A stretch of DNA of 20,492 nucleotides from a virus, in the IMG/VR virus record IMGVR_UViG_3300006928_005164, positions 1 to 20,492 of that record; one strand, 5' to 3'. Every line of letters begins with the position of its first letter. Position 1 is the stretch's first letter. A program made the position numbers and the translations under genes. The notes under the pieces were generated by a model. That model did not search any database. It saw only the letters and a program-made list of their open reading frames with translations, and was not told the DNA's origin. Shown piece by piece: positions 7,253 to 12,636 of the stretch.

Positions 7253-9010
7253 TCAGCCTCCCGCCATCATCAGCTCATCGGTGAGCTGGAATCCGTTGAC
7301 GCCGCCGGTGGTGTTCACCTCCATTTTTTCGATGGTGGTGCCCCGGTTGTTGATCTGTTGCTGCAGCCCGCCGGAGGGAACAATGCTCTCCCGCTGCAAC
7401 CCCCGCGAGCCGCCGCGCAGATCCTCGGGGCCGCCCAGGCTCGCGGCTGGATCCACGCTCGGCTGGCTGCCTTTGGTGTTGATGTTGATGCCGGGAATCA
7501 GGTTGATTTTTTTAATCAGCCAGTCGATGCCGGGACCCAATGCCTGAAATGGGTTAAGCCCCGCCACCCACGTTTTGAGGTCGGCGAGCTTGGCCATTAC
7601 GTCGTCAACAAAGCCGAGTGCTGCAGCCTTGATGTCGTCCCAGTGGCGCACAGCCATCACAATCGCCGCGATCAGCGCAGCAATGCCCAGCACCACCCAA
7701 GTGATAGGGTTGGCCCAGAGGGCAGCACTAAACAGCAGCATGCCGATGCGGGCGGCCAGCAGTACCGTTTGCAGTCCTGCCAGCGCGACCTGGGCGATGC
7801 CGCTGGCCAGTGCAAACGCGCTGACCGCAGCCACCAGCCCAAAAATCACCAGCACCGCCACGCCAATCACTTTGGTGAGGGTGGGGTATTTGTCCGTCAG
7901 GGTGACCACGTTTTCGCCCATGCGAATCAGCCACTCTGCAGCGGGCACCAGCACCGGCTGCATAATCTGGCCAAAAATGGTTTTGATGGCGGTGCCGGCG
8001 GCGCCCAGTCGCTCCCAGGGGTCCGCGATGGACTTGGCCATCTTCTCGGCCTGCTCCATGCCGCTGATATTGTCGAGCTTGCCGATATTTGATTGCAGGC
8101 CATCCATGTCCTGCATCAAAAGTTTGATCAGGCCGCTGGCCTCTTTGCTGCCAAATGCTTTTTTCAGTGCGTCTGACTCTGCCACATCCAGCGTGTCGCC
8201 AAACTTGCCGCGCAGCTTGTCGAGTATGTCCATCATGGGCAGCAACTGGCCCTGACTGTCGACGAACTTCAGGCCCAGCTCGTCCTGGGCTTTGCCAACC
8301 CCGGCAAGAAACGCTTTATATTTTGTGCCTGCCTCGCTGCCGCTCATGGTGGCCTGCAGTTGGCCGAGCACGGCCATTTGCTCACTGATGGCCACACCGT
8401 GGCTTTGGGCCTCGGCTCCCAGGTTGCCGAATGCCCCGGCCATTTCAGAACCGGTGGTTTTAAACATTTGCACCGCCGTGGCGGTCTGCCCGGTCATCTG
8501 CTCCACCCACTGCGACTTGCCCATGGCGTCGGCGCTGTTTTTGAAGATGCCGTACATGGTGCCCATGTAGTCAGTGATGGTGCTGGTGTCAGACTTGGTG
8601 CCTTTGGCCAGCACCGCGCTGGCCCGTGTGAAACTGGATAGCTCGAGATCCGACAGGCCGCCAATGGCACTCTGGATGTCATAGGAGCTGCGCACGATGT
8701 CCGCCGCGCTGTCGCCGTATTGCACGGACGTTTTCAGTGCGGTTTTTTTAAGCATTTTTAGAGCGCTATCAGACACGTCGAGGCTTTTCACCTCGCCCAG
8801 GGCGCGGCTCATTTCCACCGAGGGTCCCATCAGGGAGTTCAGGGCATATCCGGTGGCAAACAGCCCCCCGGCACCGGTGGCGATTTTCTGCATGCCTTTC
8901 TGAGCGCGCTGGGTGATCTGGTCAATTTGCGCCACAATCTTGCCGGCGGGGCCGCTGGCTTTGTCCACCAGGCCCACAATAAACTGCAATTTTTCCAGCC
9001 GGCTTGCCAT
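7253..9010 (-). CDS. T: tail tape measure protein
   Basis: A 585-aa tape measure. After a basic N-terminus (MASRLEKLQFIVGLVDKASG) comes a helical region, then at about residues 90-290 the phage minor-tail/TMP core, with segments such as VLAKGTKSDTSTITDYMGT and QMAVLGQLQATMSGSEAGT. A cluster of hydrophobic stretches at about 375-455 (VIGVAVLVIFGLVAAVSAFA; WVVLGIAALIAAIVMAV) could cross or enter the host inner membrane during ejection. The C-terminal 130 residues are Gly/Pro/Asn-rich. Tape length sets tail length; at about 0.15 nm per residue this implies a tail near 90 nm, shorter than P2's. ATG 9010 is five bases past the frameshift-extension stop. Confidence 0.9.
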   Translation of the reverse strand: MASRLEKLQFIVGLVDKASGPAGKIVAQIDQITQRAQKGMQKIATGAGGLFATGYALNSLMGPSVEMSRALGEVKSLDVSDSALKMLKKTALKTSVQYGDSAADIVRSSYDIQSAIGGLSDLELSSFTRASAVLAKGTKSDTSTITDYMGTMYGIFKNSADAMGKSQWVEQMTGQTATAVQMFKTTGSEMAGAFGNLGAEAQSHGVAISEQMAVLGQLQATMSGSEAGTKYKAFLAGVGKAQDELGLKFVDSQGQLLPMMDILDKLRGKFGDTLDVAESDALKKAFGSKEASGLIKLLMQDMDGLQSNIGKLDNISGMEQAEKMAKSIADPWERLGAAGTAIKTIFGQIMQPVLVPAAEWLIRMGENVVTLTDKYPTLTKVIGVAVLVIFGLVAAVSAFALASGIAQVALAGLQTVLLAARIGMLLFSAALWANPITWVVLGIAALIAAIVMAVRHWDDIKAAALGFVDDVMAKLADLKTWVAGLNPFQALGPGIDWLIKKINLIPGININTKGSQPSVDPAASLGGPEDLRGGSRGLQRESIVPSGGLQQQINNRGTTIEKMEVNTTGGVNGFQLTDELMMAGG

Positions 9011-9014
9011 TCTG

Positions 9015-9481
9015 TTATCTGCCCTTTATTGCTTTGGTGATGCCGTTAGCCACCGCCGTCTCAAAGTTGTCCCAGTAATTCCGCTCCAGAAAGAGCGCCA
9101 TGCCCATGGTTTGTTCGTTGTCCGGTTCTGCAGCCCCAGGCAGGTGTTTCTGTACCAGGGCCTGCAGGTGCGTATAGCCGAGCGCGGCGATCTCGTCCGC
9201 TACGTCTCGCGCTTTTTTACTGCCACCGCCACGTCGGGCTTGTACAGCTCAAGCAGTTCCCCGGCCAGGTCGGTGACGTTGGCAGGGTTGTGCTGCAGCT
9301 CGGTCAGCAGCTCCCGGCTGTCGTCGGTCACACTGGCCGCCAGCAGGTTGTTCATGGCGTTGAACGTGTTTTTGCTGGCACCGTTGATAAAGGCGATGTA
9401 GTGCGGACGCTCCACGGCGAACCGCAGTGTGCGTCCGTCGTCCAGGTCGAGAGTGATGTTTGCAGCAGTGTTTTTACTCAT
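9015..9481 (-). CDS. tail assembly chaperone, -1 frameshift fusion product (155 aa)
   Basis: The full product expected if ribosomes slip -1 at the A AAA AAG heptamer (9218-9212). It keeps the first 90 codons of the 93-aa chaperone, then reads 65 codons in the -1 frame (ARDVADEIAALGYTHLQALV ... TKAIKGR) to TAA at 9017-9015. The -1 frame is open without interruption from the slip site to five bases before the tape measure start. Its translation looks protein-like, with an amphipathic helix and aromatic residues. Two-product chaperones with a frameshift before the tape measure are known in lambda (G/GT) and P2 (E/E+E'). The long form is expected to contact tape and tube during tail assembly. Frameshift efficiency is not visible from sequence. 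Confidence 0.8.
9200..9481 (-). CDS. E: putative tail assembly chaperone, short form (93 aa)
   Basis: The zero-frame product, running from ATG 9481 to TAG at 9202-9200. It begins with a beta hairpin (NITLDLDDGRTLRFAVERPH), then 'ADYIAFING'-like and helical parts (KNTFNAMNNLLAASVTDDSR; ANVTDLAGELLELYKP), ending VAVKKRET. This layout agrees with the Phage_TAC_10-type putative tail assembly chaperones as I remember them. It occupies the P2 gpE position, just before the tape measure. The start overlaps the stop of the HP1-type holin gene (ATGAGTAA), so translation is coupled. The short form likely dominates; the fused form arises by frameshifting at codons 88-90. Confidence 0.78.
   Translation of the reverse strand: MSKNTAANITLDLDDGRTLRFAVERPHYIAFINGASKNTFNAMNNLLAASVTDDSRELLTELQHNPANVTDLAGELLELYKPDVAVAVKKRET
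9212..9218 (-). promoter_or_regulatory. programmed -1 ribosomal frameshift site (A AAA AAG)
   Basis: The minus-strand heptamer A AAA AAG lies in the correct phase (zero-frame codons GTA AAA AAG), three codons before the chaperone's TAG. This is the most slippery -1 sequence known in E. coli (dnaX type). Bases just downstream can form a short GC hairpin (9212-9208 with 9186-9182), but it sits against the slip site rather than at the usual spacing, so any stimulator is uncertain. Confidence 0.82.
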
Positions 9482-9713
9482 GATGTGATTCCCGTTGTTG
9501 TTGTCTAAGCCTTGCTTTCAGTTCTTCGTGAAACTTCTCGCGCTCCAGCGCCATATTCAGTTTTTTGTAGTGCCAGTTGACCAGCATGGTGATAAACCCG
9601 GTGACCAGCACACCCAGGGATATCCACTGGTTAAACGTCAGCCCCCACAGCGCCCCGAATACCACCGTGAGCCACTGCAGGATGAGGTTGTGCTTCTCCA
9701 CTCTACAGGCCAT
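9474..9713 (-). CDS. HP1-type phage holin-like membrane protein, 79 aa
   Basis: ATG 9713 has an AGGA Shine-Dalgarno eight bases upstream and overlaps the preceding 3TM holin gene by 11 nt. The protein shows two membrane segments (about residues 10-26, LILQWLTVVFGALWGL, and 29-47, WISLGVLVTGFITMLVNW). A strongly charged cytosolic tail follows (YKKLNMALEREKFHEELKAR, then RQQQRE). The 'VNWHYKK' turn after the second segment is characteristic of the HP1-family holins (Phage_holin_2_3). Next to a 3TM holin and a putative endolysin it may act as holin, antiholin or pinholin partner; which protein plays which part cannot be told from sequence. Confidence 0.75.
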   Translation of the reverse strand: MACRVEKHNLILQWLTVVFGALWGLTFNQWISLGVLVTGFITMLVNWHYKKLNMALEREKFHEELKARLRQQQRESHHE

Positions 9714-10194
9714 CCTTCTTTCCTGACCGGGCGCTGAACACCTGTACCAGCAGGGGCAGCACGTTCTGCATTGCCCTCTCGCCAAACAGGAAGCCCAGCA
9801 CCAGGAAGTTGATAACAATCAGCGCCGTCTGCTGCTGTTCGTTGAGGCTCCAGGTTGCAAACCATTGGAAGTCGAGCCACAGCGTGGCAAACCCCCACAG
9901 CGGCCGCTGGCAGCCTCGCAAAAAGAGCACCAGCGGGCCGAGTATCGGTATCGCCTTGATGTCTTTGGCGGTGCCCTCCAGCTCACCAATTCTCTTGGTC
10001 ATCGCCTCCGATGCTTCCTGCGTCGCGGCATCGGCATCCCGCTGTTTTTGCAGCTCCAGATTCATCAGCTCCGCTTTGAGTGCGGCTTTTTCTCCCTCGC
10101 TCATGTCCGGCGGGAAGTAGGTCTTTGCCACATCAAAGGCCAGCGCCCCGATGCCGGACGTGGCTGCACTGGCGATTTTTTTCAGCAGGTTCAC
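9703..10194 (-). CDS. 3TM holin (GTA_holin_3TM-like)
   Basis: A 163-aa protein starting at GTG 10194, which overlaps the endolysin stop (GTGA) and has a strong GAGGGGG ribosome site about 8 nt upstream; an ATG-only reading would force an implausible 205-aa product. The N-terminal 75 residues are a charged helix (MSEGEKAALKAELMNLELQ and onward). Hydrophobic segments follow: PILGPLVLFLRGCQRPLWGF, the adjoining ATLWLDFQWFATW, and ALIVINFLVLGFLFGERAM. This is the arrangement of the '3TM holin' family first defined for gene-transfer-agent release. It should form the inner-membrane lesion that lets the endolysin out. Confidence 0.75.
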   Translation of the reverse strand: MNLLKKIASAATSGIGALAFDVAKTYFPPDMSEGEKAALKAELMNLELQKQRDADAATQEASEAMTKRIGELEGTAKDIKAIPILGPLVLFLRGCQRPLWGFATLWLDFQWFATWSLNEQQQTALIVINFLVLGFLFGERAMQNVLPLLVQVFSARSGKKDGL

Positions 10195-10811
10195 AGGTCC
10201 GCCCCCTCGATCAGCGTGTAGGTAAAGCGGTTGCCGTAGCGGATGGCGGACAGACGGCAAAGCGACATCAGCAAGGCAAAGTCCAGCGGGTTGGCCAACA
10301 CCTGGCAACCTGCGCTCCACTTGTCCACCTGGTGGCTGGGCAGGGCCTGAGCGGCGCGGTGGCAGTTAATGCCAAACAGCCCGGTTTGCCTGTCTCCATC
10401 GGTATCCACCACGCCATCCCGGTTGTTATCCCGGCAAACGGTGACAGGGCCAACCTGCACCAGCGCGCTGTATTTGCCCTGGTGCATGCCCATAGTCCAC
10501 AAGCCGCTGTACTGGCCGGGCATAACCACGGCGGTGCCTGCTACATTTAGCGGGTTCTCCAGGTAAAACAGGCCGGGGTCGGTGGTGCAGCGCCACGCAA
10601 ACAGGTGCGGTTGCCCGTCGGTATAAAACGCCGCGCAAAACCAGTCGTTAAACGTGTTGGCGTTGCTGTCTGCGGTGCGAATGCCGACCAGGTTCAGGTT
10701 GTAATCGCCCCGATCAAACCACTGATAGCCATGGGCTATCACGGCCTGTTCCAGTTGCTCAAAGGTGGGCGGCTGAGCGGCTTTCGGTTTTCTCGCTGGG
10801 CGCTTTGTCAT
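10191..10811 (-). CDS. putative L,D-transpeptidase-like endolysin with Ca-binding-like loop
   Basis: A 206-aa protein starting at ATG 10811 (ATGA overlap with the DksA-like stop), placed directly before two holin genes, so it is the likely endolysin. Residues 151-169 read H-x14-S-A-G-C, within GINCHRA...KWSAGCQVLANP, closely paralleling the L,D-transpeptidase catalytic HX14-17[S/T]HGC with Ala in place of the second His. Immediately before it, residues 128-140 (DNNRDGVVDTDGD) form an EF-hand/dockerin-like loop. The N-terminus is basic, without a signal peptide, so export would depend on the holin. The middle is beta-rich with many aromatics. Cleavage specificity is unknown. No lysozyme-type active site is seen. 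Confidence 0.6.
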   Translation of the reverse strand: MTKRPARKPKAAQPPTFEQLEQAVIAHGYQWFDRGDYNLNLVGIRTADSNANTFNDWFCAAFYTDGQPHLFAWRCTTDPGLFYLENPLNVAGTAVVMPGQYSGLWTMGMHQGKYSALVQVGPVTVCRDNNRDGVVDTDGDRQTGLFGINCHRAAQALPSHQVDKWSAGCQVLANPLDFALLMSLCRLSAIRYGNRFTYTLIEGADL

Positions 10812-11032
10812 GTGCAAAACCCTTTTTGCTGTTGTTCCTGGTGGCGGTATCCCTGGCACTCTGTGCAGCAGTCAATCCCGCCCATTTGTCGCCGCTGTGG
10901 CGCTATTTCTTCCCCGCAGTCCAGGCAGTGGGTGAGGCTTGGCAGCCCGCTGCGGTCATTTTTTCGGGCTGCAGCCAGGGCCATATCCCTGGCCCATTGC
11001 TCTGCCTGTTCGGCCCGGTCGGCCTCATCCAC
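10808..11032 (-). CDS. TraR/DksA-type zinc-finger protein, 74 aa
   Basis: A 74-aa protein that begins with GTG 11032, two bases after the tube-gene stop. It has the layout of phage TraR/DksA homologues: an N-terminal acidic/Ala-rich helix (DEADRAEQAEQWARDMALAA), then a C-terminal zinc finger with HCLDCGEEI (C36, C39) and CCTEC (C56, C59). Such proteins enter the RNA polymerase secondary channel and alter promoter choice, like plasmid TraR and P2 Orf82. The predicted acidic tip DEADRA is consistent with that role, because TraR-type proteins use an N-terminal acidic residue near the active site. Its position in the lysis group is shared with other P2-like phages. Confidence 0.85.
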   Translation of the reverse strand: MDEADRAEQAEQWARDMALAAARKNDRSGLPSLTHCLDCGEEIAPQRRQMGGIDCCTECQGYRHQEQQQKGFCT

Positions 11033-11034
11033 TG

Positions 11035-11487
11035 TTAAATCAGGCCGTCTTTGTCACTTTCTGGCGCGTAGGGCACGCCGTTGATCCGGACGAAGTCTTT
11101 ACCGGTCACCTCGTAGGGTATCTTGTGTTGCAGTTTTTCCTCGCCGTTCGCGCTGGCGTTGAGCAGGTCGGATATTTTGGTCAGGCACTCGAACAGCTCA
11201 ACGTTCAGGTTGCTGCTGTTGGTTTCGCCATTCATGACAATGTCGAACAGCTCCATTTCCTGCCATGACCCGGCCTTTTTTGCGGCCTCGATCATGATGT
11301 TGAGGTTGTCGGTGTCCAGCGTGATTTCGCCGGAGCAGGTCACCCCGCCCCGCACGTATCCGTTGGGGCGGTTGCGGCTCATGGCCGCTTTGCTGCTGTC
11401 CTCAATGGTGGCGGTGACCTCGATAAACTGCACCGCATAGTTGCCGACCATCACGCCGATGTCGTAACCGGATAGTTTCTGTCCCAT
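11035..11487 (-). CDS. FII: tail tube protein (DUF2597-like)
   Basis: A 150-aa protein starting at ATG 11487, with SD AGGAG about 8 nt upstream, following the sheath gene by 33 nt. It begins GQKLSGYDIGVMVGNYAVQF and has beta-rich body segments, including GGVTCSGEITLDTDNLNIM and a helix before VTGKDFVRINGVPYAPES. This agrees with DUF2597 proteins, which take the tube (gpFII) place after DUF2586 sheaths in K139-type phages. The tube forms the inner channel through which DNA passes. The call depends strongly on the sheath-tube order. Confidence 0.8.
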   Translation of the reverse strand: MGQKLSGYDIGVMVGNYAVQFIEVTATIEDSSKAAMSRNRPNGYVRGGVTCSGEITLDTDNLNIMIEAAKKAGSWQEMELFDIVMNGETNSSNLNVELFECLTKISDLLNASANGEEKLQHKIPYEVTGKDFVRINGVPYAPESDKDGLI

Positions 11488-11520: not shown

Positions 11521-12636
11521 TTACTCGCCGCTCAGATCCAGCAGGATGTTGGCGGTGATGTCTTTCGGCGAGTTGAATGGCTGCGCCTTGATATAAATTT
11601 CCACGCTGGTGATGGTCGGCCACAGAATCGTTATGGCGTCATCTGCCGGGGGCCGGATTTCGCCGGGGAAGTGCTCGCCGGCAAAGGTGGTGCTGTGGCT
11701 CATTTCGCGCATCGGGCGGGTGAAATAGGTTTTGTTGGCCGCAATGCTTACCGGGGTACTGTTGAAGCTGCGGTTTGCCACCCGGGCAATGGCCAGCACT
11801 CGGACGGCGCGGGCGATTTTGTCGATCACGCGCAGGTTTTCGATCACCTGGTAGTCACCGGCGGGCACGTCCAGCAGGTTCAGGTCGCCCCAGTAGGTGC
11901 CCGGGTAGTCGACGTAGCGCTGTATGCAGCTCAAGCGGTTGCTGTCCAGCGTTGACAGGGTCGCGTTGCTCAACGGCTCGCCGTCCATGTCCAGGGGGGC
12001 ATCGCCCAATCCCAGCACGGTGCCGGTGGCCACCCGCATCGGGCTGTCGGCAATGCTCACTGCGCGATTGCAGAGTCGACCGGCTACCGCGCCCAGGTCG
12101 TTACCGTGCAGCTGCGGGACAGCGCCAACCCGGTAGGCGGCAACGTCGCTGGTGATCGCCGCCTGGGCGGATTCATAGACTGACCAGGTCTCACCGGTGG
12201 ACGGTGTCGGGTCAATGCCCGGCGTGGCAGTCAAAATAATCACGCGCCTTGCCAGCCCGGTGCGCAGCGCCTCGGCCTTGGTTTGCATGGCCTCCAGATC
12301 AGCCGCGACAGTGGCCGGGGTGCAAAGCACGATCAGCTCGGGGCTGATGGTCTCCATGGCACCGTCAACCACCGACTCCCAGTCATAGCCGGTATTTTGC
12401 GGGGCGGCGTAGCACAGCCAGTTTTCCCCTCCGTTGGCCTGGGCGGCCGCCACATTGCGCTTGATTTCGCTGTCGGGTTCGCCGAGCAGTGTGTCCAGGT
12501 CGCTTTGGGCGTTGATGCTTAACACCTGCCCCACGTTGGTTTCGCCCTCGCCGATGAACAGCGCTTTGCGCTCAACTTCATCAAAGGCACCCTGGGCCAA
12601 ATTCAGGTTGTTGACGGTAACGGAACCCTGTCCCAT
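11521..12636 (-). CDS. FI: contractile tail sheath (DUF2586-like)
   Basis: A 371-aa protein starting at ATG 12636, 28 nt after gpS. The N-terminus (MGQGSVTVNNLNLAQG, then ALFIGEG) and the C-terminal ANKTYFTRPMREMS ... VEIYIKAQPFNSPKDITANI region fit the DUF2586 family of phage tail sheaths. The length matches P2 gpFI (about 396 aa) only loosely, because the two families diverge. Sheath subunits stack around the tube and contract to drive the tail into the envelope. The central 'RYVDYPGTYWGDLNLL' and 'VIENLRVIDKIARAVR' segments resemble the conserved sheath core. The next gene is the tube, which supports the assignment. Confidence 0.83.
   Translation of the reverse strand: MGQGSVTVNNLNLAQGAFDEVERKALFIGEGETNVGQVLSINAQSDLDTLLGEPDSEIKRNVAAAQANGGENWLCYAAPQNTGYDWESVVDGAMETISPELIVLCTPATVAADLEAMQTKAEALRTGLARRVIILTATPGIDPTPSTGETWSVYESAQAAITSDVAAYRVGAVPQLHGNDLGAVAGRLCNRAVSIADSPMRVATGTVLGLGDAPLDMDGEPLSNATLSTLDSNRLSCIQRYVDYPGTYWGDLNLLDVPAGDYQVIENLRVIDKIARAVRVLAIARVANRSFNSTPVSIAANKTYFTRPMREMSHSTTFAGEHFPGEIRPPADDAITILWPTITSVEIYIKAQPFNSPKDITANILLDLSGE

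Follow-up and report, generated by a model that had tools for sequence, protein, structure and literature searches.

A 206-residue protein encoded among the tail genes of a P2/HP1-like phage is probably the late-operon endolysin of that phage, a cysteine enzyme of the L,D type that would cut peptidoglycan at meso-DAP3. Its gene lies on the minus strand of a 20,492-base virus record, which was analysed over its whole length and is referred to here as the window (Table 1). A plus-strand gene in the same interval is ruled out by a stop codon within it, and a search against Rfam gave no match within the window. Translation of the minus strand yields an acidic loop (D128-N-N-R-D-G-V-V-D-T-D-G-D140), a histidine at position 151 and the tetrapeptide S166-A-G-C169, all of which had been pointed out in the original prediction made from this DNA. 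As an L,D-transpeptidase-like build is combined here with a position used for host lysis, the protein (hereafter, the target) probably represents a kind of lysis enzyme that has gone unrecognised.

Table 1. The candidate endolysin gene and its neighbours, by position in the window
Feature	Position	Strand	Basis
Candidate endolysin, YkuD-like cysteine enzyme (PHROG 3000), 206 aa	10191..10811, including stop	-	ORF, homology, model, synteny
Codons of H151 to C169 (predicted catalytic H, S166, C169)	10305..10361	-	Positions computed from ORF
Codons for the acidic EF-like loop (residues 128-140), which joins two strands	10392..10430	-	ORF, model, alignment
Putative holin-like protein, 163 aa, hydrophobic C-terminal segments	9703..10194	-	Position; no significant Pfam or PHROG match
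HP1-type holin, about 76-77 aa	9474..9701	-	Pfam Phage_holin_2_3 7.4e-07, above cut-off; PHROG 20 holin
DksA/TraR-like zinc-finger protein, left border of slot	10808..11032	-	PHROG 54
Tail assembly chaperone, right border of slot	9200..9481	-	Pfam Phage_TAC_10
Tail tape measure protein	7253..9010	-	
Tail tube protein	11035..11487	-	Synteny, homology
Tail sheath protein	11521..12636	-	Synteny, homology

The genes of this region follow the order sheath, tube, DksA-like zinc finger, target, 163-residue protein, HP1-type holin, chaperone and tape measure. The target is likewise found in about 55 P2-like loci (near-identical ones included), where it lies between the tail tube gene, which the zinc finger may or may not accompany, and the genes for the tail chaperone or tape measure. 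In related phages the same slot is occupied by other lysis genes. After the zinc finger, C5a and PY3 encode a pesticin-like muramidase and SMHB1 encodes an M15 endolysin, with the Pesticin and M15 assignments both confirmed by profile, while K139, phiO18P and HP1 carry a holin together with a lysozyme or endolysin. The target is located as an endolysin of a P2-like phage would be, beside a holin and in place of another lysin, and the assignment of this gene to the endolysin slot in the original prediction is therefore borne out by what its relatives encode there.

Two holin genes had also been proposed to lie immediately downstream. Both genes are in that position, and the 77-residue product matches the HP1 holin family of Pfam and the holins of PHROG, whereas the 163-residue product has no significant match to any family and is holin-like by its place and its hydrophobic C-terminal segments. 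Homologues of the 163-residue protein come after the target in related prophages too. Comparison of the two neighbours with C5a gp37/gp38 or ACA1 gp23 by BLAST revealed no homology, such that only their positions agree. Small membrane proteins, as judged by a crude hydropathy measure, are encoded at positions +1 and +2 of the target in 80 of 264 cases, versus 108 of 973 elsewhere (p 7e-13). Some of the proteins encoded at +1 belong to holin and spanin families.

Some phages that carry the target have no other recognised lysin. In ACA1 and ACA2, complete P2-like phages that form clear plaques, their authors could identify no endolysin, and gp35 of these phages is a homologue of the target residing in exactly the same slot. 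When 20 selected ACA1 proteins, mostly unassigned ones, were searched for lysin families, no match was obtained. The crAss-like phage crAss002 has a holin annotated elsewhere in its genome and no annotated endolysin; its gp5 is a target homologue, after which come two proteins, each with a single membrane segment, and then terminase. In the crAss-like loci L012, L013 and L014 the proteins encoded after the target have a single membrane segment, at the N-terminus or the C-terminus, and are perhaps spanins or holins. Neither GH24 nor Amidase_2 was detected in ACA1, crAss002 or the other target-carrying P2-sized IMG/VR records searched. Searches for GH19 and GH108 likewise found nothing, but because they included no positive control we do not treat this absence as evidence. 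Among the families searched, the target homologue is the sole recognisable lysin of ACA1 and crAss002, and the phage of the window has in addition a Peptidase_M15_3.

This peptidase is encoded outside the window, on a 33,886-base contig (G001, locus L001) that contains the entire window at 99.995% identity and ends at an integrase. The complete M15_3 gene (G001:1500-1862(-), also L178:1500-1862; E 4.7e-15) adjoins the integrase and an excisionase-like gene and is not grouped with the holins; the search that detected it covered 16 other target-carrying IMG/VR records, and it was present in none of them (0/16). The earlier remark that no other endolysin is visible in the window agrees with the genes seen there, but a different endolysin beyond the window had been named as a finding that would count against the proposal, and the M15_3 gene is in part such a finding. 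Since the fuller copy carries this peptidase, it may be a second lysin of the phage.

The target belongs to PHROG 3000 (E 2.7e-37), a family whose function is unassigned, and it also matches the C-terminal part of PHROG 33083 (7.4e-16), a family annotated as endolysin whose members have the target domain at the C-terminus. Both families are matched by all 95 of the 95 aligned relatives. Searches of the target against Pfam and NCBIfam gave no family above cut-off, and a search of PDB sequences produced nothing credible, the matches to nanobodies being due to chance. Scans located at least 593 encoding loci in viral contigs and 254 in species genomes. Homologues are found in P2-like prophages of marine Gammaproteobacteria, in Bacteroidota, in crAss-like phages and in huge phages; some family members occur in bacterial chromosomes and plasmids, where a phage context is not evident, and these count against the endolysin reading.

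Some proteins unite the target domain with domains that act on the cell wall. One of these joins it to a GH24 lysozyme (L169; E 3.2e-45), and others carry SLT and PG_binding_1, or SH3 and PG_binding_1, in addition to the domain; a viral contig encodes PG_binding_1 together with it. Fusion forms were detected in Rhizobium, Methylobacterium and cyanobacterial plasmids. A GH24 lysozyme gene and a target homologue share a region of one large phage contig (L096, G035:153560-154009), echoing the fusion in L169.

Conservation was assessed among 162 relatives, non-redundant at 80%. The residues H151, S166, G168 and C169 are each kept in 99% of these sequences and A167 in 96%, and of the residues in and next to the acidic loop, R127 is kept in 100%, D128 in 99% and D132 in 91%. 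Positions T76, G80, G92, Q119 and V171 are also near 100%. The only near-invariant cysteine is C169 (C185 is kept in 79%), and the histidine and the cysteine lie 18 residues apart in 117 of 161 relatives. Because they are near-invariant across the 162 relatives, H151, the SAGC motif and the loop residues are not chance occurrences, and the observation with which the original prediction began is confirmed.

The published signature of YkuD enzymes is (S/T)XGC, in which X can be any residue (PMC12729407), and S166-A-G-C169 conforms to this pattern in about 99% of relatives. The alanine at position 167 had been read as a departure from the signature, standing in for a second histidine. As X is free, it is no departure, and the chromosomal YkuD proteins fetched for comparison have WTDGC. 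The real departures are the replacement of HG(S/T) by H-R-A and of GC-phi-R by GC-Q-V. Thus, the phi-G-phi-H-G-(S/T) motif is represented by a histidine kept in 99% of relatives that is followed by arginine in 81%, not by glycine, and C-Q-V is found in about 90% where C-phi-R-(M/L) would be expected. One copy, on a plasmid of the cyanobacterium Tolypothrix (L181:2797-3609), has lost both the histidine and the cysteine (SAGS) and is apparently a degenerate, inactive relative.

An AlphaFold2 model built from the target alignment (mean pLDDT 96.6) has as its best PDB match, by Foldseek, Campylobacter Pgp2 (6xj6), a weak match with a probability of 0.75 and an E of 0.056. With a second model, representing a distant subfamily (pLDDT 95.2), the top 16 PDB matches are all of L,D-transpeptidase or L,D-carboxypeptidase type. 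The best is an L,D-transpeptidase of G. oxydans (8qzg; probability 0.93, E 3.4e-3), and further matches include Csd6, M. tuberculosis Ldt structures, Bd1075, DpaA and a clostridial fused wall protein, which from its company in the list would also have the L,D-transpeptidase fold. No structural match passes E 1e-3 and the TM-scores are about 0.25-0.40, and hence it is the consistency of the match list that serves as the evidence. The Pfam YkuD family (PF03734) is touched by 5 of 95 members at E up to 1, with a best E of 0.0087 that falls below the curated cut-off, and the protein of the window has no match to it. Profile-profile comparison with the fetched YkuD proteins pairs histidine with histidine and cysteine with cysteine (p 0.02-0.07, versus 0.2-0.6 for reversed profiles; probabilities of about 2%), and in one YkuD subgroup (YafK-like) these residues did not align. 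This comparison, in register but weak, was rejected as proof of YkuD membership by itself. A divergent YkuD-like fold is supported by the models, less strongly than the slot, the conservation and the fusions are supported by their own data. Because the family keeps the histidine and SXGC without HG(S/T) and C-phi-R, we call it YkuD-like and do not file it under PF03734. The earlier description of an L,D-transpeptidase-like protein is upheld by the PDB matches of the two models, weak as their scores are; the HMM and structure check suggested at that time returns structures of the expected type and does not reach the cut-off of PF03734.

The acidic loop had been likened to an EF hand or dockerin. 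Residues 128, 130, 132 and 136, corresponding to EF positions 1, 3, 5 and 9, are all D, N, E or S in 134 of the 162 relatives; glycine is present at EF position 6 in 18% and an acid at position 12 in 22%. In the AlphaFold2 model the loop joins strands 123-128 and 141-144, and there is no helix-loop-helix. An EF hand is ruled out because the loop lies between two beta-strands and neither Gly6 nor the acid at position 12 is conserved, leaving of this comparison the acidic residues themselves. It is possible that they form a conserved loop, with a structural or metal-binding role, next to the catalytic strand. What endures of the original interpretation is the endolysin slot, the YkuD-like fold and the invariance of the cysteine and histidine; the remark on the second histidine and the EF hand do not.

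In the mechanism that we propose, the target would be soluble and cytoplasmic, and the neighbouring holin-like proteins would let it through the inner membrane. Beyond the membrane, H151 would activate C169, the thiolate of which would attack the meso-DAP3 carbonyl of a stem peptide. Hydrolysis of the acyl-enzyme by water would then complete cleavage. Acting as an L,D-endopeptidase, the enzyme would cut the meso-DAP3/D-Ala4 bond of a 4-3 cross-link, whereupon the strands would separate and the wall would lyse. The slot, the conservation and the fusions to wall-active domains are computational observations. What we infer is that the protein is lytic, that it cuts this bond, that it acts by hydrolysis and not by transpeptidation, and that it needs a holin. 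Hydrolysis by YkuD enzymes has precedent in carboxypeptidase and endopeptidase activities (PMC12729407). We also put forward, as a tentative and distinctly less probable extension, that PHROG 3000 might constitute a large class of cysteine endolysins that has escaped recognition, acting as L,D-endopeptidases at meso-DAP3/D-Ala4 in cross-links with a metal-bound loop by the active site, and that it might be the lysin so far missing from ACA-type P2 phages and crAss-like Intestiviridae.

The main competing explanation, which we judge unlikely, is that the target is an accessory wall-editing enzyme, an L,D-carboxypeptidase or transpeptidase that helps another lysin or blocks superinfection without itself lysing the cell. 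Its structural neighbours include Csd6, Pgp2 and Bd1075, which are carboxypeptidase-type proteins. Also in keeping with such a role are the relative fused to a GH24 lysozyme, the record with a GH24 gene in the region of the target and the M15 peptidase carried by the fuller contig. YkuD enzymes mostly act as transpeptidases or carboxypeptidases (PMC12729407). Such enzymes do not by themselves lyse cells, which counts against a lytic function. However, ACA1 and crAss002 carry a target homologue and no other recognised lysin, and the target substitutes for a lysozyme in the slot. A quite improbable variant, specific to the phage of the window, is that the M15_3 peptidase encoded next to the integrase serves as endolysin, with the target being dispensable. 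That gene is full-length and the slot endolysin of SMHB1 is of the same family, but it is located in the early/integration region, away from the holins, and is missing from all of the other target-carrying records searched for it.

The location of the target gene among tail genes might instead indicate a lysin carried in the virion tail and used to breach the wall on entry. We give this very little probability: in crAss-like phages the gene adjoins terminase, away from the tail genes, and the same slot of relatives carries ordinary lysis genes. Equally remote is a coincidental motif in an unrelated fold, for which the lack of a curated Pfam family above cut-off and of a PDB sequence match could be cited; the 16 best structural matches of the distant subfamily, all of L,D-transpeptidase type, and the 99% conservation of both the histidine and the cysteine argue against it.

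The closest parallels of the target are the YkuD L,D-transpeptidases (PF03734; for example LdtMt2 and the G. oxydans enzyme 8qzg), with which it shares the predicted fold, a histidine followed by SXGC, the wall as presumed site of action and fusions to PG-binding domains. It differs from them in having HRA for HG(S/T), GC-Q-V for GC-phi-R and an invariant R127-D128 with the acidic loop, and also in its score below the Pfam threshold, its place in a phage lysis slot and the lack of a visible signal peptide. The branch of the YkuD fold formed by Csd6, Pgp2, Bd1075 and DpaA, which is among the nearest structures, consists of carboxypeptidase-type or protein-detaching hydrolases; these are cellular periplasmic enzymes for trimming or detaching, whereas the target is a single-domain phage protein. 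The lysis modules of P2/HP1-like phages (C5a muramidase, K139/HP1 lysozyme, SMHB1 M15 peptidase) have the same slot and similar partners but an unrelated catalytic domain. PhaLP holds 10 YkuD-type phage lytic proteins (PMC8310338). These match curated YkuD models, unlike the far commoner target family, and the idea common to both is a YkuD domain in a phage lysin. The target family is probably an overlooked endolysin family, YkuD-fold lysins being already known, rarely, in PhaLP; within our incomplete coverage of the literature, no publication describes an L,D-transpeptidase-like endolysin belonging to the target family.

The present reading moves PHROG 3000, with at least several hundred viral members, from unassigned function into lysis, and provides a candidate for the endolysin missed by the authors of ACA1 and ACA2 and for crAss002, which lacks an annotated one. 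If it is correct, an L,D-specific cysteine lysin would have a bond specificity that is rare among phage lysins. Because carbapenems acylate many L,D-transpeptidases (PMC12729407), a carbapenem might block phage lysis.

Several loci depart from the usual arrangement. In L144 and other Bacteroidota loci among L121, L137, L142, L143 and L150, the next gene after the target encodes a DUF2589 protein; this domain accounts for 6 of the +1 proteins scanned (Bacteroidota contigs), in what is not obviously a phage-lysis context. Split or interrupted copies of the target are represented by L022, with two target ORFs, and L230, with one stop. A Hymenobacter plasmid (L184) and a huge phage (L016) encode versions in which the first half of the fold bears an insert resembling a peptidoglycan-binding domain.
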